Source: Aurantiochytrium sp. KH105 (lineage: Eukaryota; Sar; Bigyra; Thraustochytrida; Thraustochytriidae). From it: 64,000 bases of DNA. The notes beneath the pieces are model-generated. The model was given only the letters and a program-made list of their open reading frames with translations, did not search any database and had not been told where the DNA came from. Position 1 is the stretch's first letter. Each line of letters opens with the position of its first letter. This document shows, piece by piece, positions 6,001-29,937 of this stretch. The stretch is taken from contig BGKB01000073.1 in assembly GCA_003116975.1 (NCBI GenBank), positions 124,001-188,000 on the forward strand. The letters run 5' to 3'. The position numbers and the translations under genes are program-made.

Positions 6001-9000
6001 TGCTGGGTTTCCTTACAGATCCGGTAACTATTGCCGATTTTGGAGCACAAGGTCTCCCGCGCGACTCGTTGTCAGTGGAAAATGGTGTCCTCGTAATGCA
6101 GAGCGCGCGACATCCGTTGCTGGTAGATCCGCAGGGTCAAGCCCTGCAATGGATTCGTCGACGCGAGGCGGCGCAACTGCCTGCTTTTGGAACGACCACC
6201 ATGCAGCATCCGCGCTTCCGAGACCAGCTAGAGTCATGCCTCGCTCAGGGTAAGAGCCTCGTGGTGACGGGTATTCAAAGTGAGGTCGATCCCGTGCTGG
6301 ACCCGGTGCTCGACAAAGAAATCGTCTCGCGGGGTCGAGCGCACTACATTGTCATTGCTGACAAGGCAGTGGACTTTGACGTTTCCTTTGCTCTCTTCCT
6401 CATCACAAGCGCTTCTCGCGCGAGCTTCACACCCGAGCTCCAGGCGCGAACCACTGTGATCGACTTCACGGTCACGGAAGAGGGTCTCGAGGATCAGCTT
6501 TTGGGCCAAGTCATCCAGAAGGAGCAGCGCGCGCTGGAGGACCAGCTGACCGAAGTCTTGGCCTCCGTGACGAGCAACACGCGCCGGCTGCACGTGTTAA
6601 ATGAAGAGCTCTTGGAGCGATTGACGGAGAACAGCGGCAACCTGTTGGACGATGACGCGCTGGTGTCAGTTCTGGCGGGTACGAAGCGAGCTGCAACAGA
6701 GGTTAACGAGAAGCTGCAGACTGCCGCAGAAACGCGAGCCTCGATCCTTGAGAAACGCGAACAGTATCGTGCCGTGGCAACGCGGGGAACAGCGTTGTAC
6801 TTTGGAATTGTCGCTCTCAGCGCGCTCAACCCCATGTACCAGACAGCTCTGGACCAGTTCATTGTGCTTTTCCGACGAGCGATGGACTTGGCGGAGAAGA
6901 ACCCGAGTATTGTGCGCCGTGTCTCTGCCATAATCAAGACCCTCACGGCAACTGTGCACCACTATGTAAATCTCGGACTTTACAAAAAGGACAAGCTCGC
7001 GTTTGTGCTCTTTGTATGCCTTCAGTGTTTGCTCAAGAGTCATATTGTCGAGCCCGCGATGGTCGATGTGTTGCTGCGAGGCGCTGCGGACATTGATGCA
7101 AACACCGCACCGCCAAAACCGATTTCGTGGTTGTCGCAGGAAGCGTACCTGAATGCGCTTGCATTGGCTCAGAATGTGCCATTTTTCGGCTCTTTGATGG
7201 CCAACATTGTCGGCAAAGAGTCCCTGTGGCGGCGTTGGTGGGAAAGCGACAGTCCTGAGCTCGGTCAGATCCCCGACTACGAAAGCAAGCTTGCGTCAGA
7301 CATGACGGGCGACTTCTTCCGGCTTCTCCTAGTGCGTGTCTTGCGCGAAGATCGCGCGGCACGTGCAGCACAAGCTTTTGTAGCCAAGAGCGAAATGATC
7401 GAATCGCACGGACACACTCACCCCTTTCTTGGGCCACATTTTGTAACAAGCCCTGCAGAGTCAATGGAGACAGCGCTCGAGCAGACAGAGCCGCACATCC
7501 CCGTCGTGTACTTGCTGAGCCCTGGCGGAGACCCGACGGAAGCACTTGAAGCATTGTGTAAACGTCAAAAGCAGCGGCTGACGTGCGTGTCAATGGGTGC
7601 CGGCCAGGGCCCTGTGGCGCTCAAGTCGCTGAGCGCAGCCATTGCACTTGGCGAATGGGTGCTTTTGCAGAACGGGCACCTCGACATTGGCTTTATGGAC
7701 GCACTCCAGGCGATTTTGGAAAAGGTGAAGCACGCAGTATCAAGTGATTCGCAAGCGCCGAGTGGGCCCTCTGTGGGCGACAATGGCTATGTGAGTCATG
7801 CAGAATCCGGCGCAGCGGAAGAGCGGCTCGCTGTAAATCCGAAGTTTCGCCTATTCGTGACAACTGAGTCCCGGCCAGACTTTCCCGTCGGACTCTTGCA
7901 ACAAGCTCTCAAAGTGACGAATGAGCCTCCCGCGGGGATCAAATCATCGATGATGCGCTGCTTTACGGAATTGGTTGATCAAGAGAGGCTCGATCGGGTT
8001 GAATCAGACGTATGGAGGAAGATGCTCTTCACTACGTGCTTTTTACACGCCGTTGTTCAAGAGCGGCGGCGCATTGGCCCCATTGGCTGGACGATCCCGT
8101 ACCAGTTCACAGTCGGTGACTTGCAAGCGTCTCTTTCATTTGTGGAGCGGCATCTGTTTGGTGCTTCTGAGATCTCCTGGCATGCAATCCAGTACATGGT
8201 TGCAGAAGTTCAGCTCGGTGCGTCCGTCACGGATGATGTAGATCGCCGTCTCATGGCAACCTTCGCGGACCTCTACTTGCAGCCCGCTTCGTTGGCGCCG
8301 GGCGCAACTTTGGCCCGGAGTCCGACGTTCACGTACGAGGTTCCTGACTTTCCTGAAATTGAGCAGTACGTCGCGGCTGTGGCAGCTTTCCCAGAAGGTG
8401 ACGACAGCGCCGAGGTGCTTGGGTTGCACGCAAACGCACAGGTCAGCTCGCGTGCCCAGACTTCGCAGACACTCTTGGACTCGATGCTGCAAATGCAACC
8501 CAAGCACGCTCCTGCGCAAAGTACAGATGATGCTAGCGCAACGGGTCAAGCCGAGATGGACGTCGCCACGCGAGCAGCCAAAATCTTGAGCGAATTGCCA
8601 ACGCTGCCAGCGCCTTCGGCTTGTGCCGCGCACATTGAACGTCTCGGCGGTCTTTCTGTCCCGTTGAATGTTGTGCTTTCGCAAGAGCTCGCCTTTTTGC
8701 AGAATGTGCTGACGACCGTGAAAACTTCGTTGCGAGAGCTGTTAGCTGCACTCAAGGGTCACGCAACAATGAACCCCGAGCTCGCTGAGCTACATGATCT
8801 TATCTTCATCGCCAAGGTACCCTCGTTATGGGGTTGGCAAGCTGCGGGTCTAAATTCGTGGATGACAGGGTGTCACGATCGAGTTGACCACTTTGCAAGT
8901 TGGGCAACGCACGGCGCGCCGTCTTGCATTTGGCTGGGGGGTTTTGCTCGCCCGCAGGCGCTTTTGACAGCTGTCAAGCAAGAGGTGACCCGAGCTCACG

Positions 9001-9389
9001 CAGAAGACGGATGGGCTCTGGACGGTGTCGAGTTGTCGACGCAAATTACAAGTTTTGCGGAAAACACCCATGTGCGCGCAGCGCCGAAGCACGGCGTTTA
9101 CGTTCATGGACTTGTCTTGGAAGGTGCTGCATGGAACGCTTCGGATCTTTCGCTCTCGGCTCCTGCGCCGAAGACTGTCTCGACGCCAATGCCCGTCATT
9201 CATGTGTCGGCTACGACGCGCGACGCGGCAAAGCGAAGTGGGGCCGAATACGGCCCGTTTGGGCCTTATGAGGCCCCGCTGTATCGAGACACGGCTCGTC
9301 GCGAGTTCGTCGCGTACATCAAGCTGCCTTCCAAGGAGCAGCGTCCCTCGCATTGGGCTTTGCGTGGTGCAGCACTTGTGCTTAGCTGA
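3..9389 (+). CDS. Axonemal dynein heavy chain, outer-arm DNAH5/8-like (5' partial)
   Basis: Motor subunit that drives microtubule sliding in the flagellar axoneme. The frame is open from base 3, and the residues before the first Met/Val (RFYFVSNP) match the end of the dynein linker, so the true start lies upstream and the tail and most of the linker are missing. Four ordered P-loops are visible: AAA1 GPAGTGKT (834-857), AAA2 GPAGAGKS (1704-1727), AAA3 GDCGTGKS (2724-2747) and AAA4 GVGGSGKQ (4068-4091). The coiled-coil stalk flanking the microtubule-binding region lies near 4780-5780, followed by AAA5/6 and the C-terminal region, ending WALRGAALVLS. The AAA1 stretch with HYDFGLRNILSVLRT and RDMNLSKL is the pattern I know from DNAH5/DNAH8 (outer-arm gamma class). 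No intron interrupts over 9 kb. Dynein is certain; the subclass is fairly likely. Confidence 0.95.
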   Translation, partial: RSRFPRFYFVSNPVLLQILSQGSDLDAVQPFYEKIFDAVSQVSLDPANTRTITHVKNVIGDDEEAVALSTPVQASGHIEDWLLSLLTETQTTMKDHCRAAASECIDAELEDFISRHTAQFALLGLQLKWTAQMTHALTHCKGNKNIMGETSKLQLAILTKLSSMCLTDLGSAMNRKKIETLVTVQVHQRDVSADLFRMFKDRRVGSAQDFDWTKQARFYWNPDPVQGGCSISVCDMDFTYAYEYLGCKERLVITPLTDRCYVSLTQALGMNLGGAPAGPAGTGKTETVKDLGRALGTYVVVINCSDQQRHTDLAKIFKGLCRAGIWGCFDEFNRIELPVLSVVAQQILAITNAKRMQSATLTFPGDADAISIKHTVGTFITMNPGYAGRQELPENLKALFRTVAMMVPDREIIIRVKLCSVGYSKFTELANKFNTLYRCCEMQLSAQHHYDFGLRNILSVLRTAGQIKRDNQSHDEHALLMRALRDMNLSKLVALDVPLFLSLLLDLFPQQQSQQQVLQDEQNGEGGIGPALSLVLREGGLQVHPPWVRKVHQVHDTTLVRHGIIVLGPAGAGKSACLEVLAEAQTRLNGVPTKIVRMNPKAIRAQEMFGETDPASHEWVDGVFATLWAKHNDRSRRDRTWLVCDGPVDALWVENLNTVLDDNKILTLANGERISMSDNVKLVFETEDLENASPATVSRAGIIFVSDSDLDWEPVLESWIAQQQEAHRPILRDLFARWVGNCDLFAAFSRLFVSTLPRTRVSLITSTFQLMEKLIAQAKLSDSPSDAEQELERILLFSLTWTFGALVDAADRSKFDQLLRSVAGETSSEALPARANNDDSCFNYRLALPETSWEPWEEPAWKPRGGESHLSRFRRDFANLRIPTSETLRATFVLKQMHARRKPLLLVGDCGTGKSTLARMFADSMQEEDDQQSRQVFKAIKLSFSTTPRVLQDAIEGEVDKRGGKTYGPSNGQEMTIFLDDLSLPETNLWGDQPTMELVRQLVELRTLAFLDKDKRGDFKTLEDVQFMAAMTRARAGSLQATSAVAEKDKDSAVAAATADSEEAHDAQALRQVGIPRRLLRHFFVLNVSPPNQQTLSGIYLTMIRSFVACAGLQNAEWDLSKLGTMADKLVPATINLWNRARDFLLPTPSKAHYIFTLRDLSRVFQGVMRVPVDVILELGEKTIYKVWRHEVERVFADKLICETDKSRLRSIADEVANRDLGKDVASQCYYASASSGASASSNASASGNRKQSKKEVAQGGKSSAGPKELVQFVDFLRDPVIDEDDGSVVAPAPRVYEPAPSMEALQERVFEFLDLHNQESPERELDLVLFRDALSHLLRAVRVLGLPRGNLLLVGVGGSGKQSIAKLAAYIAQLELFRMNVSKSYSRANLFEDMRALYRVVGKERKSLAFLVSEPDIREESFLEIFNAYLSSGDIVSLFPKDELAVMASDMRSIAIKEQPGFIDTPENLTRYFVDSIRDKLHMILCMSPVHAKYQERVRRFPALFAESFIDWYLPWPTEALQAVADQRLADFELTCSDAVRASLVAHTGSVHALAQEQARAYNSQLQGSIHMTPKSFLSYLEQFKDMYAQRLEELTQKETQIELGLSKLVTGASDVEQLKVVLAQEEVKLRAAEEACNSMISSLEQSSMEAKKEADAVSRIKAACEAEAALITEEKNAAEEDLKAAQPFLEEAEKAANSIKPNDLNELKKLPKPGDIIKLTFDGVMILRMYKLKPVSMAKVNIGIGKEKKEIRFVGDSYTLCQKSMLADSGFLKSLFRFSAEEKDNINDETIELLMPYLDLPDFSPLVARNASKACEGLCAWVLAMAKYHSASKMVKPKLEKLGLAEAKLETALGDLADAESKLQSCKNKLEELQERFQAQMAEKQEIEDGTRQSRARMDKATALIEGLKDERTRWGQDASAFADAKKRLVGDCAVASAFLSYAGAFNQDFRNRLVQTCFVGDLVKRKVPVTLRENVTPGEDETKAKVTAGGAPGTFDLLGFLTDPVTIADFGAQGLPRDSLSVENGVLVMQSARHPLLVDPQGQALQWIRRREAAQLPAFGTTTMQHPRFRDQLESCLAQGKSLVVTGIQSEVDPVLDPVLDKEIVSRGRAHYIVIADKAVDFDVSFALFLITSASRASFTPELQARTTVIDFTVTEEGLEDQLLGQVIQKEQRALEDQLTEVLASVTSNTRRLHVLNEELLERLTENSGNLLDDDALVSVLAGTKRAATEVNEKLQTAAETRASILEKREQYRAVATRGTALYFGIVALSALNPMYQTALDQFIVLFRRAMDLAEKNPSIVRRVSAIIKTLTATVHHYVNLGLYKKDKLAFVLFVCLQCLLKSHIVEPAMVDVLLRGAADIDANTAPPKPISWLSQEAYLNALALAQNVPFFGSLMANIVGKESLWRRWWESDSPELGQIPDYESKLASDMTGDFFRLLLVRVLREDRAARAAQAFVAKSEMIESHGHTHPFLGPHFVTSPAESMETALEQTEPHIPVVYLLSPGGDPTEALEALCKRQKQRLTCVSMGAGQGPVALKSLSAAIALGEWVLLQNGHLDIGFMDALQAILEKVKHAVSSDSQAPSGPSVGDNGYVSHAESGAAEERLAVNPKFRLFVTTESRPDFPVGLLQQALKVTNEPPAGIKSSMMRCFTELVDQERLDRVESDVWRKMLFTTCFLHAVVQERRRIGPIGWTIPYQFTVGDLQASLSFVERHLFGASEISWHAIQYMVAEVQLGASVTDDVDRRLMATFADLYLQPASLAPGATLARSPTFTYEVPDFPEIEQYVAAVAAFPEGDDSAEVLGLHANAQVSSRAQTSQTLLDSMLQMQPKHAPAQSTDDASATGQAEMDVATRAAKILSELPTLPAPSACAAHIERLGGLSVPLNVVLSQELAFLQNVLTTVKTSLRELLAALKGHATMNPELAELHDLIFIAKVPSLWGWQAAGLNSWMTGCHDRVDHFASWATHGAPSCIWLGGFARPQALLTAVKQEVTRAHAEDGWALDGVELSTQITSFAENTHVRAAPKHGVYVHGLVLEGAAWNASDLSLSAPAPKTVSTPMPVIHVSATTRDAAKRSGAEYGPFGPYEAPLYRDTARREFVAYIKLPSKEQRPSHWALRGAALVLS

Positions 9390-9717: not shown

Positions 9718-10986
9718 TTACCTGGCCATAGCGCCCACTGTAGATGGTCGCGTCCAAACGAGCGCCAGCGCCACGGCGACTGCTGCGACGGCTGCTGCGG
9801 TTGCCGCAGGATGAGAGACTGTCCACCGAGCATGGTGCACTGCCCAGTTCATAGATGCAATCCATGCACGACGTGTCTTGAGAGGTAACCTCATTGCCGA
9901 TGATTTGGGCAGGTCGACGTTCCGCGTTCGCTCGCCGACGCGAATGAGATCCGCGGGAGGAAATCTTGCCATCATGAAGAGTGCAGACTCGACAAGATTG
10001 TCCACACAGTTCTCCTTTTCTTCAGCGCGGGTCGCCGGCACGTATGATGAGCCTGACACGGGCGCGCCTGCGCTGGCTTGTCGTTTGGCAATTCGTTTAC
10101 GCTGTGCTTTATATTTTTTGTTGCGCTGTTCCCACGAATCCCGAGAAGTCATTGGCGCGCAGGGTGGGGCAATGTTTTGCAAAAAATGATGAATTGTTGG
10201 CATGCTACAGTCCTCTTCGGCTACCTCAAGCAAACGGCGGCGGGTGGTAGGACGCAAGACAAGTGCTGCTGCCAGGTAGATGCAGAGGAGCGGGTGCGAC
10301 GCAAGAATAATATCAAACAGACGGGCAGTCACGTTGAGGTCTTGCACCGAGTGCGCAAATCCGGTGAGAACCCACGCGAGCGCAAACATGGGTCCAACCT
10401 CTGCGCGTTCGAGTGTGGTGCTGACCTTGTGGTCAAAATGGTGAATGATCACGGGCAGCAAGTTCATTGCCTGTATGGTGGCGCCAAAGTCCTGCCCATG
10501 ATGATCTTTGAACTGAAGTCGACTTGCCGCCAGGGTCGTTTCGGACGCTGCGCGAATGTCATTACCCATGACATGAAGGTGCACCGTCGCTACGTCGTGA
10601 AAGCCCTGGTAATAGTGCAGAGTAGCGTCAGCTCGTAGCACATTGAGTATAATTTCTGTGAGGGCTTCCCGCTTGAGGACCCGAAGGTCGCGCGGCAGCG
10701 CCTTGTCGCAGCCGAAGTGGAACATGCTCCGCTCGATGTCCATGTTGAACTCCTGCACGAGCGCGTCGCGCGTTTTGGCGCGTTTGGGCGAGGCCGCGGA
10801 CGCGTCGTCGGCGTCCGCGGCCAGCAGCAGCGGCCACGCCCTGCGTCTGAGGAAGTCCGAGACGAGCCCGCCCGGCTCGGCGCTCAGCTCCGCGAGCCTC
10901 TCGGCGTCCCGCGCCGCCACGGCGCGCTCCACCTCGGCCGCCTTGCCCGCGCGCCGGCCGCCGCTGCGCGCCACCTCGCGCGCCAT
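9718..10986 (-). CDS. TBC-domain Rab GTPase-activating protein, TBC1D20-like
   Basis: Predicted GAP that stimulates GTP hydrolysis by a Rab (Rab1 in animal TBC1D20) at the ER/Golgi. From the first ATG (10986) the product is 422 aa; three further codons upstream only reach a TTG. The two catalytic fingers of TBC domains are present: the arginine-finger segment NMDIERS (R86) and the glutamine finger YYQGFHD (Q127). A hydrophobic segment close to the C-terminus (AAAVAAVAVALALVW) fits the C-terminal membrane anchor that separates TBC1D20 from most TBC proteins. It faces the dynein gene tail to tail and shares a short upstream region with the AAA+ gene at 11318. The N-terminus is rich in Ala/Arg/Glu. 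Family confident, TBC1D20 subtype likely. Confidence 0.85.
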   Translation of the reverse strand: MAREVARSGGRRAGKAAEVERAVAARDAERLAELSAEPGGLVSDFLRRRAWPLLLAADADDASAASPKRAKTRDALVQEFNMDIERSMFHFGCDKALPRDLRVLKREALTEIILNVLRADATLHYYQGFHDVATVHLHVMGNDIRAASETTLAASRLQFKDHHGQDFGATIQAMNLLPVIIHHFDHKVSTTLERAEVGPMFALAWVLTGFAHSVQDLNVTARLFDIILASHPLLCIYLAAALVLRPTTRRRLLEVAEEDCSMPTIHHFLQNIAPPCAPMTSRDSWEQRNKKYKAQRKRIAKRQASAGAPVSGSSYVPATRAEEKENCVDNLVESALFMMARFPPADLIRVGERTRNVDLPKSSAMRLPLKTRRAWIASMNWAVHHARWTVSHPAATAAAVAAVAVALALVWTRPSTVGAMAR

Positions 10987-11317
10987 CTTCGCCAAATGAC
11001 GTCCAGCGACAGATGGATATAGAGTTCTGCGACGCTCGCTGTGACGCCTTGTTGTCGCTTGTTAGCGAACTTTTCAAATCGTTTCAAACGATTTCAAATC
11101 GATTCAAATCGATTCAAATCAAATCGATTCAAATCGTTTCGAACCGCGCCGTCGACGACGAAGCGCAGAGCAGCAGAACCCCTTCCTCGGCGAGAACGAG
11201 CTGCGCGACGGACGGGCTTCGCGCACGCAGCCGCGCCTGCGCCAGAGCCCGGACGCGCGCGCCTGCGCACGCACGCGGGACGTAGCGTGGGCAGCTCGCG
11301 AAGAGAAGGAGGCGGAG
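10987..11317. promoter_or_regulatory. Shared divergent upstream region (TBC gene / AAA+ gene)
   Basis: About 330 bp separate the two divergent start codons, so the promoters of both genes must lie here or overlap the coding ends. The middle carries a 10-bp-period array (11072-11144); the rest is GC-rich. No TATA box is obvious. Assignment as promoter rests on position only. Confidence 0.45.
11072..11144. repeat. 10-bp-period tandem array (TTTCAAATCG-like)
   Basis: About seven imperfect copies of TTTCAAATCG / ATTCAAATCG in a row, AT-rich within a GC-rich spacer, lying between two divergent start codons. Confidence 0.85.
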
Positions 11318-14242
11318 ATGACGATGACGATGAGGCCGAAGATGAGGACCACCTCGAGGCGCCGCGCCTCGAGACCCGGCGCGGGGGTCCTGGCGCTGGC
11401 GGCGCTGGCGCTGGCGCTGCTGCTGCCGGTACTGGCCGTCGCGGCGTCGGCGGAGTTCGCCGAGGGAAGCTTGGGCGACGACCTCGCGAACGTGGACAGC
11501 CTTCGTGGCGGCGGGCTGAAAAAGTGGGCAGAGGCCGACGGCAGCGGGGCCTCCAAGGTGCTCGCGCTCGCGGGCGACGTTGAAGCGCACCAGGAGGCCC
11601 TATTGGCTGTCCTCAGGGAGTGGAAGCCCCGCCTCGCAAAAAAGGATGCGATGCTCAGGATTCGTCGAAGGCGTGGAGCGACATCTGGGGACATTCTGAA
11701 CACTGTATCGAGATGGTTAAAGTCCCGCATCGTGAGCGACGAACTCAAGTGGTCGCTTGTCTATGTGGAAAATGCGGCGCTGGACAAGGAAACCACTCGC
11801 GACGTGAACGAAATGGTGTCCAGTCTGGGCAATCGCGAAAGCTGTATTGATGCGGATAATGATCTCAACATTCCTCGATGCGGTAAACTCCTTATCGTCT
11901 TGAGCACCAACTTTGGTGAAGAGGTCGCTCGCATGTCTCGCGATACGCTTGCAATCGAGGCAGACAAAGGCATTTTGCAGGATTCCCTAGGTCGCAAAGC
12001 TCGAACGACACTCGACGAGGTGTGTCGCCGAGAGTCCAACGTGGCGTGGATGCGGGCTCCAGAGCTGCGCAACGGCCTCGGGCGACTGATGCTCTCTGGA
12101 GCGCGACAGCTCGTGTATCCTGTCTTTGGCTTGCCGCAGTTCTCAAATGCCGGGACTCTCATTGATGAGATGAAAAAGTTGCGCGCGAAAAGGGTCTCCC
12201 CGAGTGATGACGGTTCGCTTCCGGTGCCACCTCCTCTCCCGACCTCGCCCGACGCAGTTAGTGACGCTTGCATTGACGAAGACGTAATTCGTCGCGCAGG
12301 CTTTGTTGGTCAAGTTCACGCTGTCGACGCGGTCAAATCAATGCTCAAGCAGATCCGCCACGGCTGGCGCTCCGGTGATGGACCCGTCGTACTTCTCTTT
12401 GCCGGCCCCGCAGGGCTAGGAAAGACCTTGCTTGCAAAGCTTGTGGCCCGCGCGTATAATTGTGGCATGCCTAAGGGGACGCTTGAGCGTGAAAACTTTT
12501 ACAAGGAGATTGACATGGTCAACTATCAGGATGAGCGCTCTGTGGACGGCTTTGTTGACCCTGCGCCTGGCCTCGCTGGATCTGGAATCATGGCGGATCT
12601 CTTTAGCAGTTCTCAGCGCAATGTGATCCTTCTTGACGAGATCGAAAAGTGCCATCCGAGCTTGGTCGAGAAGATGCTCTTGCCCATGATCGACAACAAC
12701 GGCGGGCATGTTCAGGCCAAAAAGTCGGGTGATGTCTTTCCCACGCGAGAGAGCATCTTTATCATGACGACGAATTGCTTTGACGAGGAGATTGCTCAGC
12801 TCTATCGGCGAGTTCAGCCCACCTCGGAAGGTTTTGATAAAGAGTCCTTTATGCGACTCTCTGAGGCGGTTGCCAGGCTCATGAAGGATCCAACGCAAAA
12901 GTGCCGCGGCTCGCACTCCGAGCAGGCCAACCCGTTCTCTTCGGGGCCGTTTTGGCGTCGTTTGGTCGCGGGATCCAGTCTCGTGACGCGTCATGGTGTC
13001 GTTCCGTTTGTGCCTCCATCGTCAGCAGAAATGGACGAGCTTGTGCGAATCACTCTCGAGTCATATTGCACTCGCTCGGGCCAGCGAGAAATTTTCTATT
13101 CGCATCGTGCCCTATTGTATCTTCAAAACACCGCGCGCGAGAAGATGCGCGCGAATAAGCTTTCGTCCGGGACAGTGGAGGCTTTCATCATTGGCGAGGT
13201 GACAGAGGCGATCCCAGAGTCGATCCTATACTCTGATGTGCGGACCATTGTGCTATATCAAAATCCTGTTTCCGGACGCCTTGCTGCCATCGGTTCTGAT
13301 GATGCTGGCACGACGACATCCAACAGCGCTGACATGAAAATTAATAACATGAAAGAATGCGAGTCGAGCTGGCCAGCCTGTGAGGACAATAGTGAGCAGG
13401 ACAGCACAGGACAGGATTCGAGCAAGTCTTCTGCTCACAAAGGCTCATCTTCGTCCTTCACACCGGAAGAGGAAGTTGAATATGAACCGGAGCAAGCCCA
13501 AGACCATCAGCCCGAACTGAAGCAGAGGCAAGAGTCCGCCTCGGATGTGGACTCGAAAGTAGAGTTTGAAATGGCCCGAATGTTTGTGCATTCTGTGTTG
13601 CTCATTGTGACCGTCTACTTTTTCTCTACCTATATGATTCTTCCTGCTGCCAAGATGCTCATGACGACTGTGGCGGTTGTCGCTGCCATTTTGTACTTTG
13701 TTGCGCCTCAACTGTTTTGGATTCTCTGGGAGGCAATCAAAACCACCTGGGAACTCTTACGCTGGGCCATCGCAAATCCTTACATTTCTATTCCTCTTGC
13801 GGGCGGATTTTATCTGCTGCTCTTGTTTCTACGCAAGCGCAAACGCACAGAGCAAGAAAAGGCAATATCACAACTGAAGGGAACGAATGTTACACTTCAA
13901 GCAGAGAGAGACGCTTTGCGCGTGCAAGTCAAGACTCTTGAAATGGACAGAGACGCTTTGAGTGCCCAAGTAGACGGGCTTCGTGCAGAGAATGCGGATC
14001 TCCGGCAGCATCAAGAGCAGCATCAAGAGCAGCAGCAAGATACGGAGGAGCTATCGCGGAAGATCGAAAGTCTGCAAAAGGATCTCGACGAGCGATCGCA
14101 GCAACCAACTGCCGAGGAGCTGACGCGGAGAATTGAGAGTTTGCAAAAAGATCTCGAAAAGCTCCGTACTGAAAATACTGAGCTACAAAAGGACCGGGAG
14201 TGGGAGAAGGCTGACATGCCGCTTCAAGGTAGTAAAGAATAG
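11318..14242 (+). CDS. Torsin/Clp-type AAA+ membrane protein with N-terminal P-loop-less AAA-like domain
   Basis: A 974-aa protein. Residues 23-44 are a signal peptide or anchor. Residues 78-265 form a domain without Walker A that ends in a sensor-1-like strand (STNFG) and resembles the lumenal domain of the neighbour encoded at 14744-15922. A Pro-rich linker precedes a Clp/torsin-class AAA+ module: Walker A GPAGLGKT (363-370), Walker B LLDEIEK (D440, E441) and sensor-1 TTN. Then follow an acidic low-complexity stretch, about three hydrophobic segments (about 753-845), a basic patch RKRKR and a coiled coil to the end. If the signal peptide is real, the ATPase is lumenal (ER/nuclear envelope) and the coiled coil cytosolic. 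The 5' end has several clustered ATG codons; the first is used. An AATAAA lies 3' at 14449. AAA+ class confident; torsin-like role inferred from topology and neighbours. Confidence 0.82.
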   Translation: MTMTMRPKMRTTSRRRASRPGAGVLALAALALALLLPVLAVAASAEFAEGSLGDDLANVDSLRGGGLKKWAEADGSGASKVLALAGDVEAHQEALLAVLREWKPRLAKKDAMLRIRRRRGATSGDILNTVSRWLKSRIVSDELKWSLVYVENAALDKETTRDVNEMVSSLGNRESCIDADNDLNIPRCGKLLIVLSTNFGEEVARMSRDTLAIEADKGILQDSLGRKARTTLDEVCRRESNVAWMRAPELRNGLGRLMLSGARQLVYPVFGLPQFSNAGTLIDEMKKLRAKRVSPSDDGSLPVPPPLPTSPDAVSDACIDEDVIRRAGFVGQVHAVDAVKSMLKQIRHGWRSGDGPVVLLFAGPAGLGKTLLAKLVARAYNCGMPKGTLERENFYKEIDMVNYQDERSVDGFVDPAPGLAGSGIMADLFSSSQRNVILLDEIEKCHPSLVEKMLLPMIDNNGGHVQAKKSGDVFPTRESIFIMTTNCFDEEIAQLYRRVQPTSEGFDKESFMRLSEAVARLMKDPTQKCRGSHSEQANPFSSGPFWRRLVAGSSLVTRHGVVPFVPPSSAEMDELVRITLESYCTRSGQREIFYSHRALLYLQNTAREKMRANKLSSGTVEAFIIGEVTEAIPESILYSDVRTIVLYQNPVSGRLAAIGSDDAGTTTSNSADMKINNMKECESSWPACEDNSEQDSTGQDSSKSSAHKGSSSSFTPEEEVEYEPEQAQDHQPELKQRQESASDVDSKVEFEMARMFVHSVLLIVTVYFFSTYMILPAAKMLMTTVAVVAAILYFVAPQLFWILWEAIKTTWELLRWAIANPYISIPLAGGFYLLLLFLRKRKRTEQEKAISQLKGTNVTLQAERDALRVQVKTLEMDRDALSAQVDGLRAENADLRQHQEQHQEQQQDTEELSRKIESLQKDLDERSQQPTAEELTRRIESLQKDLEKLRTENTELQKDREWEKADMPLQGSKE

Positions 14243-14743
14243 CTGCCTTGTTCTTTCAAAATCAAATTGCAGAGCTGGGCGGGACGGGAGTGCAAACGAC
14301 TTATCTCCCTTTTCGAAGCGAAGCAGAAAGATGGATTCACCAATTGCCGCGACAAGTCTTTCTGTATTTCTTGAACCAAAAACTTTATTTGTTTATTTTT
14401 ACAAGGTGCACCGGAGGCCGACTGCTCTTGTATATTTTCGTCTCGACAAATAAACATGCTGAACACGCAGCAAAGGCAGTTTAAATGGTCTTGAGGCGAA
14501 CCTTGCAGGTCACTTACTTTGATCAGTGATGAGAATCTGTCGACAGCAAAGTCGAAGTGAGAACCAGGTTCCGCGGCAATGGCACACAAAATCGCGAAGA
14601 CTCTCGACAATTTTTCGACCGCAGAGGCCCGCACAAGCCCATTTGCATTTCCTTTCTGATTTTAGGCATAAGAAAGGACGACACTCATTCTACGAGAAAA
14701 GCTGCTTTGTTTAGTACCGATCAAGCCAAGTTTTATATAGTTT
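14243..14743. other. Convergent 3' spacer with AATAAA
   Basis: Spacer between the AAA+ gene and the opposing LAP1-like gene. AATAAA at 14449-14454 could serve as polyadenylation signal for the + strand gene. AT-richer than the genes; short reading frames only. Confidence 0.4.
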
Positions 14744-15922
14744 CTATGATGGAACGCAGAGTCGCGCCCGATCGGAAATTCGACCCTGCATATTGTTAAG
14801 CCACTTTAGCTCAGTGTCGTGATCTTCGATCGAGGTCGAAACACAATCCTCTCCCTGAGGTAAGGATCCACCAAGGAAAACAAAGCCAGTGCCCTTGTAG
14901 GACACGTTGTCTTCCGCCACGCCCTCAGCTCCGGAAACGGGAATCTCAGGCTGGTCGAGATGATCTTTAAAGCTCATGACGCTCTGCACCGTTTCCTTGT
15001 CGGCTACATTGCGAAAAACGACAAGAGCAAGGTGATTCGGTGTCGCGTCCCCTTTCCTCTTTGCGAGAAATGTGTTGACGAGGGTCACGAGGTTCTCGTC
15101 ACCAGAAGCCGCAACATCGATTTCAAGTACGCAATCTTTTCGGCACTTTGCCCCAAAGATCTCGTCGAGAAAGCGGTCGAAGACCTTATTGATCGCAACT
15201 TGGTTGTTTGATTGCAGTCGAAGTGACATCGCTCTGCGAGGTGGAAAGTCCGTATCGTCTGCAACACGGTGGTCCACGAGCAGGCCATTTGCGAACTTTC
15301 GGAGACGATAGACCAGATCTTCGTCGCTTTTTTCATCGATTCCATCTAATGAGTTGGAAACCTTTCGCATGGTACTCGGCAACTGGCCCTCCGCATACGC
15401 GCGGCAAGGGTCGTCTTCAAGTTCTGCGCCAGGTGATTCCTCGTTGAACTTGTAAAGTGCGAAAAAAATAGCCACAAGGACGAGTACAGCAATTGCGATA
15501 GCCATGATACGAGTCTGGGTCTGCGGCGCCCTGCCGTCGGCCCTCGTATGATGCCTCTCTTTGGCCTCTGTAGGTTCGTTGCGCAAAGGCGAATTTGATG
15601 GAGATGGTCTGGTCTTGGCAACAGGTCTTCGCCTCACATTTTCGTTTTCTGTTGCGTGACCATTTGCGGAGGGCGCAGCAGGAGCAGCAGCAGCTCGCTT
15701 GACTGCTCTTTGCATGTCCTTGTACGAGTGGACGCCGTGGTTCGCGAGATCGACGAGCTCGGCTTCGACGGTGCCGTCATGTGCGTCACGGCCACCATTG
15801 CAGAGGACCTTGTGCGCTTCGTGGACTTCGCGCTTTACAGAAGGGAGTTCCTTTTCTTCAAACCTGCGCGTAATTCGGCGTCCGAGGAAGGCCTCCAGGT
15901 CTGCAGCGTCTGCATCCGCCAT
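14744..15922 (-). CDS. Single-pass membrane protein with AAA-like lumenal domain; candidate torsin cofactor (LAP1/LULL1-like)
   Basis: 392 aa from the ATG at 15922; the frame continues upstream only to a TTG through a CGCA microsatellite. Residues 1-137 are polar and probably cytosolic or nucleoplasmic. Residues 139-157 form one transmembrane helix, and 160-392 are predicted lumenal. The lumenal part contains VLEID (265-269), a Walker-B-like strand LALVVFRN (298-305) and a later strand TGFVFLGG, but no P-loop. Animal LAP1 and LULL1 share this plan: one membrane span, then a nucleotide-free AAA-like domain that activates torsin through an arginine. As I recall the LAP1 sequence, R304 falls where its arginine finger (VVHR) lies. 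The gene sits between two secretory AAA+ genes, which supports the idea. Overall similarity is weak, so function remains inference. Confidence 0.6.
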   Translation of the reverse strand: MADADAADLEAFLGRRITRRFEEKELPSVKREVHEAHKVLCNGGRDAHDGTVEAELVDLANHGVHSYKDMQRAVKRAAAAPAAPSANGHATENENVRRRPVAKTRPSPSNSPLRNEPTEAKERHHTRADGRAPQTQTRIMAIAIAVLVLVAIFFALYKFNEESPGAELEDDPCRAYAEGQLPSTMRKVSNSLDGIDEKSDEDLVYRLRKFANGLLVDHRVADDTDFPPRRAMSLRLQSNNQVAINKVFDRFLDEIFGAKCRKDCVLEIDVAASGDENLVTLVNTFLAKRKGDATPNHLALVVFRNVADKETVQSVMSFKDHLDQPEIPVSGAEGVAEDNVSYKGTGFVFLGGSLPQGEDCVSTSIEDHDTELKWLNNMQGRISDRARLCVPS

Positions 15923-16531
15923 CCTGCTCGCGCATACGCACGCACGCACGCACGTACGCTCGCACGCGCGCACGCGCGCACCTCTTGTAATCACCTTTGC
16001 TGCACAAGTCCTCACAGTCAATCACGGTCGCTCACGGCCCCTTATAATACCAAGATCAACCAAGAGAAACCGACATTTTGCGTGCGAGCGCGCGCGCGTG
16101 TGTAAAATGCTTGACCAAAGGACAGGCGCGGCGACAAGGCATATTTTCGGACACGCCGTTCGGACGCCGCGTCTTGATGATCTTTTTGTCGCTGCTGTAT
16201 ACCGGCACGAGCGCCGAAGAGTTCCACGCCAGACTGGCTCGGTCGACCGCAGGAGCATTTGGACGATACGAAACCGCCCAGATCGTAACGCATGTTGCAA
16301 CGCTGAAGCTCCGGCGGTTATATGTGAGACAGAGAGATAGACTCGGAGAGACGCCTCCGACATTTCGATTTCTCCAACTAGAACCAACTCCCCGCGCAGC
16401 GTCGAGGCGCGGAGGAGCGTGCGCTCGCGCGAGGGAGGCAGACAGCGCGCTTGCTCTGCGATAGCCCTGACGCCTAGCTAGCTGCACGTCGGCTCGCAGA
16501 GTCGCTTAGCGCTCTTTGACGCGAGGGCACC
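15923..16531. promoter_or_regulatory. Shared divergent upstream region (LAP1-like gene / second AAA+ gene)
   Basis: About 610 bp between the two divergent start codons. It contains a CGCA/CGCG microsatellite next to the LAP1-like start and a TATAATA at 16043-16049. It should hold both promoters by position; TATA function is not demonstrated. Confidence 0.4.
15931..15982. repeat. CGCA/CGCG microsatellite
   Basis: Run of CGCA units passing into CGCG/CACG units immediately upstream of the LAP1-like start codon; it lies in the 5' leader and accounts for the open frame upstream of that ATG. Confidence 0.8.
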
Positions 16532-17833
16532 ATGACGTCGACCTCGAGAGCGTCGTCGCGGCGCCTGGGCCTGACGAGGGCCCTGTGCTTGGGCGCGGGC
16601 ATCGCAATGGCGCTGGCGCGGGGTGCGCACGCCTCGTGCGCGAACCACCAGCATGATACCTTTGTTCTGGATGACTTTAACGCTCGCGTCAAGAGAGACT
16701 TTGTTGGACAACCGGCTGCTGTGCGCGCCGTACGCGACATTCTCGAGACCTTTGTTCACGAGACCGAAGATCCTGTACGCCCTCTGTCGGTGCAGCTCGT
16801 CGGGCCGAGTGGCACGGGCAAGACATACATGGCTGAAATGATGGCCACTGCGATTTTTCATGACTGTGAACCGTCCATCATGGATAATGTTCGCGGTGGT
16901 CTCGGAACGGTCGGGCGTTGGCTGGGCAAACAGAACCTCTTGCCCAAGCTCGAGGTCCCTGGTCTCTTGGATGCTGTCATGAAGCGCTCCTGTGCCGAAA
17001 ACGACCCCAAGCTCGACAGCTGGCGCAAAGCGTGCGGCATTGTGACGACAAGCTTTACTAATCCACAGGAAAAGGCCAAGGACCCAGACGCCCACAATAT
17101 TCAAAAGATCAAGACTTTTTTCCAGCGTGCTGCGCAAACCCTTCGAAAAGATCCTCGCGCGGTGCTGGTATTCGATGACTTTGTATACTGCAAGCGGGGC
17201 TGCGTCGCCGAGCTCAAGACCTTGTTGACGGAGGGCTCCTTTACTGATCCGGTCACAGGTGCTTCAGTCTCTGCCAAGAAAAGTCTCATTATCCTCACGA
17301 CGGATCTTCGCGAGTTCGGCCTGATGCTGGACCCCGGTCTTTCGTACGAGGATGCCGTGCAAACCGTGCAAGACGCTGTAGACGACTATTGGGGCCAAGG
17401 CTCGTTCGTTAGCAGCGTGGTCCGGCATGTTCCCTTCACGCCCTTGACAAATCTGGAGCTGATGCGCATCACGGATCAAATTGTCGAGCGCGTTGGCGCC
17501 GACGTCAAGAATCGCATCTCGAAAAAGCTCAACATCAAAAAGGATGGGTCCGAGCCCACGAAAAAGAAGAAGTGGATCGGATCCTTTCGTTGTTCCGAGC
17601 AGGTGAAGCAGGAGATTCTCGATTACCTATACGACAAGACGACACGCAAGGCTGCTCGGGCTGTGACGGAGGAGCTCTACGAGAGCTTGCGGGACAGCGT
17701 GCTGCAGCCGGAGCCAATTGAGAAGCGCCTCACGCAGTGGAAGACCTACGCGACCGAGATGGTCTGCAACCAGGATATCGAGGTGCGCGTAATCCCGGGC
17801 CCCTCGCTCCGAACGGACCTCGTCGTGGTTTAG
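16532..17833 (+). CDS. Secreted torsin/Clp-type AAA+ protein with altered catalytic residues
   Basis: 433 aa starting at ATG in a favourable CACCATG context. Residues 10-34 form a signal peptide ending HASCA, so the protein should enter the ER lumen. The AAA+ module begins with FVGQPAAVRAV, as in torsins and Clp C-terminal modules. Walker A is GPSGTGKT (91-98). Walker B is VLVFDDF with Asp216 in place of the usual catalytic Glu, and the sensor-1 position reads LTTD instead of the usual Asn. A sensor-2-like RKAARAV is near the C-terminus. No transmembrane segment follows, and the size fits a torsin (about 330 aa) with an extension. Neighbours are the LAP1-like gene (divergent) and another AAA+ gene. 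It may bind ATP but hydrolyse poorly. Confidence 0.8.
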   Translation: MTSTSRASSRRLGLTRALCLGAGIAMALARGAHASCANHQHDTFVLDDFNARVKRDFVGQPAAVRAVRDILETFVHETEDPVRPLSVQLVGPSGTGKTYMAEMMATAIFHDCEPSIMDNVRGGLGTVGRWLGKQNLLPKLEVPGLLDAVMKRSCAENDPKLDSWRKACGIVTTSFTNPQEKAKDPDAHNIQKIKTFFQRAAQTLRKDPRAVLVFDDFVYCKRGCVAELKTLLTEGSFTDPVTGASVSAKKSLIILTTDLREFGLMLDPGLSYEDAVQTVQDAVDDYWGQGSFVSSVVRHVPFTPLTNLELMRITDQIVERVGADVKNRISKKLNIKKDGSEPTKKKKWIGSFRCSEQVKQEILDYLYDKTTRKAARAVTEELYESLRDSVLQPEPIEKRLTQWKTYATEMVCNQDIEVRVIPGPSLRTDLVVV

Positions 17834-17902: not shown

Positions 17903-17986
17903 TGACCTCTTGATCGTGTGACCTCTTGATCGTGTGACCTCTTGATCGTGTGGCCTCTTGATCGTGTGACCTCTTAACCTTGTGAT
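17903..17986. repeat. 16-bp tandem repeat TGACCTCTTGATCGTG, four copies plus a partial
   Basis: Three identical units (17903-17950), a fourth with one A-to-G change (17951-17966), then a decayed partial unit. It lies 70 bp after the stop codon of the second AAA+ gene. Confidence 0.95.
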
Positions 17987-19608: not shown

Positions 19609-22071
19609 ATGGACAAGACGCGCAGACGAGGCCGGCCCGCACGGCTGGCGAGCGCCATGAGGACCGCGAGCGTGCTGCTGGTGGCGGCGGTGCACGTGGC
19701 CATGAGCGATGTGCAGGTCGCGGCTTCTTCGGCGTCTGCTGCTGCTGCTGCTTCAGCGGCTGCAGTGAGCTTGGTGCACCGCGGGGACGACGGAGCAGGC
19801 GTCGCGGTCTGCCAGGGCTCGCTCGTGGCGGAGAATTGGGTGTTGACGGCCGCGCAATGCGTGGTAGGCAACGCCGAGTCGCTCGAGGCGCACCTCGCCA
19901 CCGAGGACGATGGGAACCACGCAGTTGTAGTTCGTCGCGTTTCCAAAACACATGTGCACCCCGAGTACAACGCGAATGGAGGCGATGATAAGGCGCATGA
20001 CATTGCGCTCGTCGAGCTCCAGTCGGCCATGCAAACCGCTCACGGAGCGACCTCTGTTCAAATCAACCTCTTTGACATGGAAATTGAGTCAGCGAACACG
20101 GCCCTATTCCAGGCCACTTCCTTCAATGCCACGAGCCAGACCCTTGTGAAAAGCGGGTGCTCAGAGGACGCACGTGTATTATGCACAGAGGGCGGCGATA
20201 TGGCGCAGCGTTCCTGTGCGGAGATCATCGGCAGCCCTCTCGTCCACATTGACGAGTCTGGGCACGCTATCCAGGTCGGCGTTGCACGCTCGTGTCCCTC
20301 ACGCGTCGCTGTAAACCCTTCTCCAAACCCTTACGCATCTCGTGCATTCGAATTTACGCGGGTGAGATTGTATTCGAACTGGATTGCGGCAGTCTCTGGC
20401 AAAGACATTCTCGGGTCGATGGAAGAGGTTCGTGAACTTCTTCGCAAGCGAGAAGGCCTCGAGGCGGGTCAGGCATTATCGAAGCGCCTTCGGGTCCTGT
20501 CCGCAGCACAGAGCGACGATGAAACCCCAACACCTTACCCCACTGTGGCGGTGCCCACACCACCGACACCAGAACCGACGTCAAAACCAACGCCAGAACC
20601 GACGCCTGCGCCCACGCCTGTCCCCACGCCGAAACCAACGTCTGAGCCTACGATGTCACCAACGGTCTTGAAATCAACGCCTGCGCCCACGTTCTACTCC
20701 ACCCTCAACAATCCTTTCGACTGCTACATTTACAAGGGGAACCCAGGATACGAGACGGATCTTCAGGGCTGCGAGCTTCCCTTCCAGTATAAAGGTTGGC
20801 AAGATCAGGTCCTTGATTTCGATTATCCTCCTACGATTCTCGAGGCACGGCCCTTTGGCGTTGACCAGCTCGCCGGCATCAGCGCCAACGATCCAGACAT
20901 GCGTTGGTGCCCAACCGTTGGTGTGACGACCTACAACGTCAATCGCAGTAACAAAAAGAAAAGGTGGGGCGTGGTCTACTGCTCCAAGCCTCAGTATTTG
21001 CCCACCGCAAGTCCAACCAAGTTCCCCACAGCATCACCGACCCCTTTCCCTACAAATCCGCCGACGCCCAAGCCAACGCCGAAACCGACGCCCAAGCCTA
21101 CGCCTAAGCCGACGAAGGCGCCGACGCCCAAGCCAACGGCACATCCAACCAATGCGCCCACGATGCAGCCCACCATGCAGCCGACGCAACGCCCGACGAC
21201 GCTCGAATTCTATCAGAATGACCTGATTTGTATGACATATGGAGAAGACGTCGTGGCGTGCAGCGACGATGACTGGCACGAGCAAATGTGCACATGGCGG
21301 GAGAATATGTGTCGGGCTCAATACATTGATGTTGAGACGCCCTCACCGACGTCAGCGCCAAGTGAAGTGCCCCAGGTTTCGTCGGGCAATTCAGAAGGCG
21401 ATGGTTCCAGCAGTGACGGGCCAGATATGTCTCTGATCATTATTATTGCTGGGGCCTTGGGTGGCGTGACTCTAATCGTCTTGACTGTTTCACTCTATAT
21501 GGTGCGGCGTCGATCACAGCGCAAGAAGGCAAACCCGGATACAGCCATGACGGCCTACTCGGGCGACGCAGGTTATCCCTCGGGCGGGCCAAATGGCTAT
21601 CCTCCGCAATCCCACTCACCGGCATCGTCTCCGTCTCCCGCAGCGCGAATGGGCAACGTCCCATCGTATCTTCAAGACTGGGGCACGCGAGCATCTACGA
21701 GAATGGGCAATCTCAAGGGTTACTTTAGCAGCGCGGCCTCAACGCCGAGCGAGGTTGGCTCATTCCAAGGCTCGACACCGCACACAGCCAAGGTCGACGA
21801 TGCACCCGTTCCGCCGCCGCCTACCTTTCGACGATTTAATACGTTTGACAGCTTTGATTCCGACATGGCGCCTCCGCCACCGCCACCTTTGGGAGCGGGT
21901 CCGCCTGTCATGGGTGCAGGGCGCGGACTTCCACCCCGAGGCACTCCCGGAAGCGGAATCAACGCTGCCCCGCCTCCGCCGCTTCCTTCGCGACCTGGAG
22001 GTCGTCCCCCGCCCGGCTTGGGTTTTGTCAACAAGCTTTCGGCGCGATTTCCTCGCTTCCAGCAGCAATAA
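19609..22071 (+). CDS. Type I membrane protein with trypsin-like pseudoprotease ectodomain and polyproline cytoplasmic tail
   Basis: 820 aa. A hydrophobic signal follows the second Met (17). Residues 52-265 look like an S1 (trypsin) fold: GSLVAENWVLTAAQC, DIALVEL and a C-terminal NWIAAV helix. The triad is broken: His is Gln83, the Ser motif GDSGGP reads EIIGSP (Ile207 in the Ser place), and only Asp131 remains, so it should be catalytically dead. Two Thr-Pro-rich stalks (about 311-366 and 466-535) flank a Cys-containing segment and are probably O-glycosylated. One membrane helix (608-632) ends in basic RRRSQRKK. The cytosolic tail has PPPPTF, PPPPPP and PPPPLPSRP runs, as in ligands of SH3, EVH1 or profilin. 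AATAAA overlaps the stop codon. Probable cell-surface binding or adhesion protein linked to actin; role inferred. Confidence 0.75.
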   Translation: MDKTRRRGRPARLASAMRTASVLLVAAVHVAMSDVQVAASSASAAAAASAAAVSLVHRGDDGAGVAVCQGSLVAENWVLTAAQCVVGNAESLEAHLATEDDGNHAVVVRRVSKTHVHPEYNANGGDDKAHDIALVELQSAMQTAHGATSVQINLFDMEIESANTALFQATSFNATSQTLVKSGCSEDARVLCTEGGDMAQRSCAEIIGSPLVHIDESGHAIQVGVARSCPSRVAVNPSPNPYASRAFEFTRVRLYSNWIAAVSGKDILGSMEEVRELLRKREGLEAGQALSKRLRVLSAAQSDDETPTPYPTVAVPTPPTPEPTSKPTPEPTPAPTPVPTPKPTSEPTMSPTVLKSTPAPTFYSTLNNPFDCYIYKGNPGYETDLQGCELPFQYKGWQDQVLDFDYPPTILEARPFGVDQLAGISANDPDMRWCPTVGVTTYNVNRSNKKKRWGVVYCSKPQYLPTASPTKFPTASPTPFPTNPPTPKPTPKPTPKPTPKPTKAPTPKPTAHPTNAPTMQPTMQPTQRPTTLEFYQNDLICMTYGEDVVACSDDDWHEQMCTWRENMCRAQYIDVETPSPTSAPSEVPQVSSGNSEGDGSSSDGPDMSLIIIIAGALGGVTLIVLTVSLYMVRRRSQRKKANPDTAMTAYSGDAGYPSGGPNGYPPQSHSPASSPSPAARMGNVPSYLQDWGTRASTRMGNLKGYFSSAASTPSEVGSFQGSTPHTAKVDDAPVPPPPTFRRFNTFDSFDSDMAPPPPPPLGAGPPVMGAGRGLPPRGTPGSGINAAPPPPLPSRPGGRPPPGLGFVNKLSARFPRFQQQ

Positions 22072-22771: not shown

Positions 22772-24280
22772 CTAGATGAGCGACGCACGAGAAAGCAATC
22801 GGTACGAGTACGAGTGCTGCTCAATCTTCCTGTTGGCTGCCTTGGCGTCCTCTTCTTTAATAATTCTTGACCCAACAAGGGGCACATGCGCGAGCAAGGC
22901 CGCAGGGTTTGCGGCAGCGCTCACGTACGAAGTCGCGGACTCCCAACTCTCGGCAGCCGAACCGAGCATGTCCTCGTGGACCCATCGACGCAAGGAGAGC
23001 CAGCCGCCCTTTGACGGCTTGCTTGCTCGTCGCTTCGACTCTACATGGGCAACAGCCGCGTTGGCAGCGGAGACGGCAGCGCGTGACCAGAGCTCCGTAT
23101 ACACAATACCAAGCGCGAGCGGCTTAACGCAGGTCGAGGCTGCAGCCATGATGACCGAGTCGCCGACGCGCGAGACGGACTCGCGTGGCCACGACATGGG
23201 CTCACCCGCTTTGGCAGCATCTTGCAGAAGAACGCGCTGTACACGCGCACTTTCTGTGGACACCAAAGACGCGCTTGTGTCGGCGCTGTCAAAGCTTGAC
23301 CAGCTTCCGGAGCGATCGCGAGCGAGCATGCCGTGGTGGCGCTGCTGCTGTTCTCCGAGCTCAATGATTTCCAGGACATCCCCATGTCCTTGCTGTCCGG
23401 GTCGCGGCACGTCAAAAGAACTACGCGAGGAGACCTTGGCGCGACGCTGCATGGGCTTTATGCGCCACTCCTTTCTCGAAAAGGACTGCTGCCGTTGCAG
23501 GTACTGGACCATGTCTCGCGGGTCGCTGGCGAGCTTGGCATGGCCGTGTTGGTGGAGCCAGGCCATGCCATCATGAGCGCCAAGCCAGAAGAGCTCGATG
23601 AAATCCTGCATGGATGGCGGAAAGACGCCCCAGTGCAATGGAATGAATCGCGAAGGCTTGATGTCAGCGTCCATAAAGTACAACGGGCACACAGTGATTG
23701 TGTCGTCCCCAAGAGTGGGCACGATGGCAGTAAGGCCGCCGTCAAAGACCCAGGCGCCGTTGAGATTTGGGTCTCGGCACTCCATCTGAAAGGGCATTCC
23801 GGCAAAAGGCGACATGGTGCAGCTGGCCATGATGCACTTGAGATAATGGTCGGCACTGTCGAATTGATTCACAACAACACCCCGGACGGCCGGGAGCAGG
23901 CTAATCTGCACGTTGAGACGGCCGGAGCGAAGGGCTTCGTGTGTGTGCGTGGACTCGTCCATGCACCTCCGGACGCACTCCTTTGCGTACTCTCGCATTT
24001 TGAACATGTTCCGCGCGGGGTTCTTGTGGTAGTCTGCGAGGCACCTGACCATAAAGTCTGAGATGAGCTTGGCGTCAACTCCGAGGGCCATCGTCGCCGA
24101 CACGGCGGACCCTCCGGAGGCCCCCACATAGCGAGTCTTGGCCCACTCGTCAAAGCCGACCCTCTGCAGCGAGTACGCCACGCCCAGCTGCCACTGCATG
24201 AGCCACCCGCTCGCGGAGAACGAGAACGCGTCCACGTCCGGCGCCTCTCTCCTCTCCGCCATCTCCGTCGCGGCCACCAT
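22772..24280 (-). CDS. Patatin-like phospholipase/lipase
   Basis: 502 aa from the ATG at 24280; the frame extends only to a TTG further up. Patatin enzymes hydrolyse acyl esters of phospholipids or triacylglycerols with a Ser-Asp dyad. The nucleophile elbow GASGGS (Ser55) and the dyad motif FDGGL near residue 191 are both present, and the first strand FSASGWLMQW replaces the usual glycine-rich oxyanion loop, keeping only one Gly. After the catalytic region the protein continues with a polar, Ser-rich stretch and Ala-rich helical segments without a clear domain. No signal peptide. It probably acts on lipid droplets or membranes. The unusual oxyanion loop may alter activity. Confidence 0.82.
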   Translation of the reverse strand: MVAATEMAERREAPDVDAFSFSASGWLMQWQLGVAYSLQRVGFDEWAKTRYVGASGGSAVSATMALGVDAKLISDFMVRCLADYHKNPARNMFKMREYAKECVRRCMDESTHTHEALRSGRLNVQISLLPAVRGVVVNQFDSADHYLKCIMASCTMSPFAGMPFQMECRDPNLNGAWVFDGGLTAIVPTLGDDTITVCPLYFMDADIKPSRFIPLHWGVFPPSMQDFIELFWLGAHDGMAWLHQHGHAKLASDPRDMVQYLQRQQSFSRKEWRIKPMQRRAKVSSRSSFDVPRPGQQGHGDVLEIIELGEQQQRHHGMLARDRSGSWSSFDSADTSASLVSTESARVQRVLLQDAAKAGEPMSWPRESVSRVGDSVIMAAASTCVKPLALGIVYTELWSRAAVSAANAAVAHVESKRRASKPSKGGWLSLRRWVHEDMLGSAAESWESATSYVSAAANPAALLAHVPLVGSRIIKEEDAKAANRKIEQHSYSYRLLSRASLI

Positions 24281-29812: not shown

Positions 29813-29906
29813 CTCGCCTCGCCGCCCTCTCGCGCGCGTCCCCGCGCCGTGGAGCTCCGCGGCGGCTGGCGCCCGTCTGTCCACGCGCGCGCGCCGGAGA
29901 CAGACA

Positions 29907-29937
<31 letters not shown>

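Follow-up and report, generated by a model that had tools for sequence, protein, structure and literature searches.

Three neighboring genes in a 64,000-nucleotide stretch of the thraustochytrid Aurantiochytrium sp. KH105 (positions 124001-188000 of contig BGKB01000073.1, here C73, within a 76-Mb assembly; this stretch is called the window) can tentatively be read as a lumenal, membrane-tethered AAA+ module, which derives from Hsp100/Clp proteins and works like the torsin system of animals. We regard this reading as a serious possibility that stays short of being probable. Gene 1 would encode an Hsp100-like protein that is anchored in the membrane and has two AAA domains, the first dead and the second live, and gene 3 a soluble, torsin-like subunit with a single AAA+ domain. 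The middle gene encodes a membrane protein, and its C-terminal domain without P-loop is a candidate for a partner acting in trans (Table 1). That the proteins work like a torsin system is plausible, while their membership in the torsin and LAP1/LULL1 families has to be rated lower.

The original prediction had placed three genes at this locus, and all of them were confirmed as intronless open reading frames (ORFs) of 974, 392, and 433 codons. Gene 1 and the middle gene converge, while the middle gene and gene 3 diverge from an intergenic stretch of 609 bases, which may serve as a shared promoter. Contig C18 carries a second, intact copy of the locus with all three frames open and the order unchanged. 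It aligns to the C73 copy in two blocks (5.9 and 2.0 kb) at about 95% identity and probably represents the other haplotype. The codon-wise ratio of nonsynonymous to synonymous substitution rates (dN/dS) between the copies was 0.23 for gene 1, 0.24 for the middle gene, and 0.05 for gene 3. Third codon positions accounted for 72 of the 113 differences in gene 1, 23 of 40 in the middle gene, and 23 of 29 in gene 3. For the AAA+ segment of gene 1, a dN of 0.004 compared to a dS of 0.10. Due to the low dN/dS values and the bias for the third position, we concluded that all three frames are under purifying selection as proteins.

The product of gene 1 starts with a strong signal-peptide-like core (hydropathy of 3.06 for the 13-mer at residue 24), and the N-termini of two divergent homologues are hydrophobic as well (2.22 and 2.71). 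Its AAA+ domain is of the Clp class (Pfam AAA_2, 65.9 bits) and by sequence and structure is closest to Skd3 (human CLPB) and Hsp100/ClpB. In the MAFFT alignment, Walker A and the Asp-Glu of Walker B are retained. The pore-loop motif GYVG is replaced by PGLxG in gene 1, P0004, and P0005, i.e., in all three independent members, and the pore-loop tyrosine of Skd3 and Hsp100 is thereby lost. At the position of the Clp sensor-2 motif GAR, we found GT[VI] by eye in the family of gene 1 (MAFFT leaves these residues unaligned) and no recognizable GAR-type sensor-2 arginine. Torsin was not among the 21 Pfam families that matched gene 1 at E ≤ 1, and the match from Hondaea fermentalgiana (99% over the query) is named 'ClpD1, chloroplastic'. 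Judged by its sequence, gene 1 is an Hsp100/Skd3-like protein and not a torsin.

The original prediction was silent on two other parts of gene 1, an AAA-like N-domain without P-loop and the membrane-anchored C-terminus. The N-domain occupies the position of Clp D1, and Clp D1 also covers it in 17 of 50 VIA rows. It has neither a Walker A motif nor the Asp-Glu of Walker B, and the P-loop of this first AAA domain is absent in three of three independent family members, two of which are divergent homologues. The AlphaFold model predicts, with low confidence, the order b1-a1-b2-a2-b3-a3-hairpin-b4-a4, and an AAA-like fold of the N-domain is proposed at the same low confidence. The comparison to Clp D2 by hhalign (P 0.013, score 23.9; 10.6-20.4 for 15 shuffles) was suggestive only, and nothing was obtained against LAP1/LULL1, the middle-protein family, TorsinA, or the AAA+ domain of gene 1 itself (P 0.55-0.79). 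Unlike Skd3 and the Hsp100 proteins, gene 1 combines a signal-peptide-like N-terminus with C-terminal spans and a coiled coil, and no ankyrin repeats, which are present in Skd3, were found. Two of the spans enclose the Trp-rich amphipathic stretch QLFWILWEAIKTTWELLR (hydrophobic moment 0.44). This layout of span, amphipathic helix, and span recalls the membrane-fusion proteins Brl1/Brr6/CLCC1 as described in PMC13061601; the likeness is limited to the layout, and homology was neither tested nor seen. The combination of a dead and a live AAA domain in tandem, a missing aromatic pore loop, and a membrane anchor is in itself unusual.

For gene 3, the top Pfam family was Torsin (PF06309), with 31.5 and 31.8 bits in the two copies at a cut-off of 27; TorsinA itself reached 150.8 bits. 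These two places were the only ones in the genome with a Torsin match over the cut-off, and none of the 14 control genomes had such a match (three match below the cut-off). In three ordinary Clp proteins from this genome, AAA_2 ranked first (227-230 bits), and Torsin was not among their best 25 of 47-50 families. BLASTP aligned gene 3 to TorsinA in two collinear pieces within residues 60-368, the first with an E value of 2e-5 and the second, weak one with 0.12. Like animal torsins (TorsinA; PDB 5J1S, 6OIF), gene 3 has a single AAA+ domain and a signal-like N-terminus, and neither gene 3 nor TorsinA has an equivalent of the GYVG pore loop in a MAFFT alignment with Skd3 and two Clp D2 domains of this genome. 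By eye, both may lack an arginine in the Clp finger column; the SSVVRH sequence of gene 3 aligns near the Clp finger, and its assignment depends on gap placement. The signal peptide and the Clp/torsin-class AAA+ domain had originally been predicted for both outer genes. A signal-like N-terminus was recovered in each of them, with a weaker hydrophobic core in gene 3 (2.19), and the AAA+ domain is of the Clp class in gene 1 and of the Clp/torsin class in gene 3.

Gene 3 was also close to the Clp proteins. By hhalign it stood nearer to Clp D2 (P 5e-16) than to TorsinA. The best NCBIfam model of gene 3 was ClpB (44.7 bits, above its Torsin score), and its best PDB matches were Clp/Hsp100 chains, with TorsinA absent among the best 60 of 61. 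Unlike animal torsins, gene 3 also has about 50 extra residues inserted behind its first helix. We consider 'torsin-like' a fair label for gene 3; 'torsin' alone would say more than the sequence comparisons show. Of the two outer genes in the torsin-like module of the original prediction, the label suits gene 3, which exceeds the Torsin cut-off in both copies, and not gene 1.

The similarity to ClpB would also agree with gene 3 encoding a derivative of ClpB that a presequence directs to an organelle (the mitochondrion), and its position beside gene 1 would then be functionally meaningless. The N-terminus is indeed rich in Arg and Ser, lacks acidic residues within the first 41 positions, and has a moderate hydrophobic core followed by Arg. 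However, a hydrophobic stretch of 13 residues with AHA-S behind it agrees with a signal peptide, and the eight cysteines after residue 35 would suit an oxidizing lumen. We regard the organellar alternative as quite unlikely.

The middle protein has a single span with 138 residues before it (24 Lys and Arg, 21 Asp and Glu) and 235 residues after it. Arginine before the span and acidic residues after it suggest a type II orientation with a lumenal C-terminal domain. This domain was slightly longer (residues 158-392) than the 165-392 of the original prediction, which was correct in assigning one span and no P-loop: no Walker A was found by eye, and ALVVFR or ALVVFN stands at the would-be Walker B. 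The search for homologues at E ≤ 10 yielded just two, of which the best match (97-98%) is annotated as hypothetical in Hondaea and the other is P0002 (about 50%, 415 residues). Arg381, Cys389, Cys173, Cys260, and Cys360 are invariant in all four rows of the alignment. The Hondaea protein lacks 71 residues that are encoded in frame by codons 64-134 of the middle gene (window 15521-15733), which are kept in both copies and partly aligned by P0002; this gap is perhaps a false intron in the annotation.

According to PMC4358337, LAP1 has an AAA-like fold that lacks both the small domain and Walker A, carries hhhhHR in place of Walker B, uses Arg563 as its finger, and forms a disulfide between Cys582 and Cys424. 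The middle protein shares with LAP1/LULL1 (PDB 4TVS, 5J1S chain B) the single span, a C-terminal domain of similar length (about 230 residues), the lack of Walker A, an arginine near the C-terminus, a C-terminal cysteine (Cys389), and a further, invariant cysteine after the first helix (Cys260). By eye, ALVVFR resembles AAVVHR of LAP1, and KWLNNMQGRIS resembles LNGLWSRIS. Unlike in LAP1/LULL1, the stretch preceding the arginine is about 20 residues shorter (by eye). No Pfam family, including LAP1_C (PF05609), matched the middle protein at E ≤ 1. A search of the genome for LAP1_C found none, and there was no match in the control genomes either. We also tried to link the middle protein to LAP1/LULL1 by BLASTP and by two implementations of hhalign, and this link was rejected as not significant. 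A shuffle test of the C-terminal domain against LAP1/LULL1 resulted in a z value of 2.8, compared to 3.1 for one of six dynein fragments among 14 other segments. The hhalign comparison of LAP1/LULL1 to Clp D2 was likewise not significant (P 0.11), although LAP1 has a proven AAA fold. Since the same methods miss the link of LAP1 to Clp, these negative results for the middle protein carry little weight.

Several observations weigh against a torsin-like module. Pfam, BLASTP, hhalign, and the shuffle test did not connect the sequence of the middle protein with LAP1/LULL1 or any AAA+ protein, and its original designation as a LAP1/LULL1-like cofactor was not borne out by sequence comparison. The two LAP1-like motifs are kept only in part, with RVT replacing RIS and FN replacing FR in P0002, and part of the likeness to LAP1 is, therefore, coincidental. 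Structure prediction and structural search, which had been suggested as a check on the middle domain, did not confirm the predicted AAA-like strands. The AlphaFold model was too poor for a judgement (mean predicted local distance difference test score, pLDDT, of 52), probably because homologues are few; it shows b-a-b-a in its better half and no fold match above noise. The model of gene 1 was modest (mean pLDDT 57, predicted template modeling score 0.44), with values below 50 for the hairpin and the last helix of the N-domain. The assignments of arginine fingers hinge on gap placement, and MAFFT places the arginine of gene 1 one residue past the Clp finger. Gene 3 has GKT in Walker A instead of the torsin GKN (GxxxxGKN in PMC7175109) and Asp-Asp in Walker B, while Clp and TorsinA have Asp-Glu. 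The torsin sensor-2 motif Gly-Cys-Lys (GCK; PMC4999309) is absent from all 433 residues, and TOR1A_C (PF21376), which scores 116.4 bits in TorsinA, did not match gene 3 at E ≤ 1. The tree placed neither gene 1 nor gene 3. Adjacency was seen in this genome only and is deduced for two of the genes in a near-identical one.

The last point concerns synteny, which the original prediction had proposed to follow in related species and which could be traced only in Hondaea. Its orthologues of gene 1 and the middle gene are near-identical, and since both are listed with the same longest contig of 490,680 bases, they are probably linked there too. A Hondaea orthologue of gene 3 was not recovered. Genomes this similar provide little evidence on a deeper conservation of the neighborhood.

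A true torsin-LAP1 system, with gene 3 orthologous to animal torsins, the middle protein orthologous to LAP1/LULL1, and the pair predating animals, would explain the Torsin match over the cut-off, the collinear BLASTP pieces, and the one-span plan with C-terminal Arg and Cys of the middle protein. The missing GKN and GCK motifs of gene 3 argue against this, as does LAP1_C, which was found neither in the middle protein nor in a search of this genome, where the controls gave no match either. In addition, TorsinA matched Clp D2 better by hhalign (P 9e-9 with ten rows) than it matched gene 3 (P 5e-5 with two rows). We consider common descent of the two systems improbable.

The three genes may also be ordinary neighbors: genes 1 and 3 two divergent Hsp100 chaperones of the secretory pathway, and the middle gene an unrelated, lineage-specific membrane protein. 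This explanation comes close to an even chance. It agrees with the Clp D2 kinship of gene 1 and of gene 3, with the lack of detectable AAA+ kinship of the middle protein, and with the finding that one of the two homologues of the latter is from a near-identical species. However, several LAP1-like features occur in order along the middle protein. Genes 1 and 3 matched each other with 16.5-17.2 bits, below the 22-48 bits that they reached against the Clp proteins of the genome, and their adjacency is thus not due to recent duplication. By a rough estimate, two of at least about five Clp-class genes per genome copy would be unlikely to lie two genes apart by chance. The architecture of the middle protein would plausibly suit a partner, and judged by the homologues available, a LAP1-like activator and a mere neighbor appear similarly probable.

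If the three proteins form a torsin-like module, threading of substrates is improbable, since the aromatic pore loop is lost in both ATPase families. Binding and hydrolysis of ATP would rather drive assembly and release at the membrane of the endoplasmic reticulum (ER) or the nuclear envelope. Hydrolysis would be controlled by an arginine that a neighbor contributes, Arg558 of gene 1 or, for gene 3, Arg381 of the middle protein. The gene structures, the domain order in the sequences, the selection, and the absence of pore loops and P-loops are established, and the location in the ER and the topology, the physical interaction, the donation of arginines, and a shared function are the inferred parts of this model. 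In a further-reaching version, which we consider unlikely, active-site complementation of the torsin type is not an invention of animals. A stramenopile would possess a non-threading, membrane-anchored lumenal AAA+ machine with the P-loop-less partner domain present twice, both as the dead domain fused into gene 1 and as a membrane protein of its own, whose gene would use the same divergent promoter as the torsin-like gene 3. Gene 1 would couple its ATPase directly to the lumenal amphipathic helix between its spans, as in the nuclear-envelope fusion proteins.

Table 1. Features of the three-gene locus and its surroundings (window positions).
Feature	Position	Strand	Basis or remark
Gene 1, 974 aa: putative signal peptide, AAA-like N-domain without P-loop, live AAA+ domain of Clp type, C-terminal spans, coiled coil	11318..14242	+	ORF, Pfam, second copy, homologues P0003-P0005
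Gene 1 putative signal peptide, residues 1-43	11318..11446	+	Hydropathy and small-residue cleavage-like site
Gene 1 N-domain, about residues 80-216	11555..11965	+	Low-confidence AlphaFold model, alignment
Gene 1 AAA+ domain, about residues 326-640	12293..13237	+	
Gene 1 Walker A GPAGLGKT, residues 363-370	12404..12427	+	Sequence, alignments
Gene 1 Arg558, invariant within family	12989..12991	+	Alignments; at, or one residue from, Clp arginine-finger column
Gene 1 membrane region, residues 760-842	13595..13843	+	Two clear spans, Trp-rich amphipathic stretch, weaker third span ending RKRKR
Gene 1 C-terminal coiled coil, about residues 849-961	13862..14200	+	Heptad-like by eye; Pfam matches weak, below cut-off
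Middle gene, candidate activator of 392 aa with one membrane span	14744..15922	-	ORF (longer frame 14744-16021); ATG at 15922 agrees with start of P0001
Middle protein C-terminal domain, residues 158-392, no P-loop, probably lumenal	14747..15451	-	Alignments, low-confidence model
Middle protein Arg381, candidate arginine finger	14780..14782	-	In ...NMQGR[IV][ST]xRARLCxPS; about two independent lineages in the four rows
Middle protein transmembrane span, residues 139-157	15452..15508	-	Hydropathy 3.01
Divergent intergenic region between start codons of middle gene and gene 3	15923..16531	.	ORF coordinates
Gene 3, 433-aa single-AAA+ torsin-like protein	16532..17833	+	Torsin 31.5 bits, ClpB model 44.7 bits
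Gene 3 signal-like N-terminus, residues 1-35	16532..16636	+	13-mer hydropathy 2.19 at residue 17; mitochondrial presequence as alternative
Gene 3 Walker A GPSGTGKT, residues 91-98	16802..16825	+	Sequence, alignment
Gene 3 Walker B Asp-Asp, residues 215-216	17174..17179	+	Sequence, alignment
Dynein heavy chain	42-9389		Ordinary neighbor
TBC RabGAP	9718-10995		Ordinary neighbor
Trypsin-domain protein	19609-22071		Ordinary neighbor
Patatin-like lipase	22772-24331		Ordinary neighbor
Atg22-like	55560-57119		Ordinary neighbor
WD40 protein	57202-58791		Ordinary neighbor

Just downstream of gene 3, the window contains a tandem repeat with 4.6 copies of the 16-base unit TGACCTCTTGATCGTG (17903-17975). 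Further downstream, two ORFs on opposite strands overlap by about 1.2 kb, 25148-30478 (-) with a GTF3C1 winged helix and 29253-31400 (+) with PAP2_C. Both are supported by Pfam, and one of the two starts is probably set too long.

A full-text search, with most subscription journals and preprints outside its reach, revealed no relevant paper on torsin in stramenopiles, thraustochytrids, or oomycetes, and no title on torsins outside animals was among the matches listed in broader literature searches. Two papers state that torsin is animal-specific or absent from lower eukaryotes (one of them PMC7175109), and the second of them connects the requirement for torsins with open mitosis. Within the literature covered, a torsin-like system outside animals is thus undescribed.

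Thraustochytrids are oil-rich protists. If a member of this group indeed has a Clp-type ATPase that resides in the lumen, does not thread substrates, and works with a membrane partner, it would provide an outgroup for the role of torsins in nuclear-pore insertion and in the handling of neutral lipids. Since divergent homologues of the gene 1 tandem exist, this part of the proposal is testable now.
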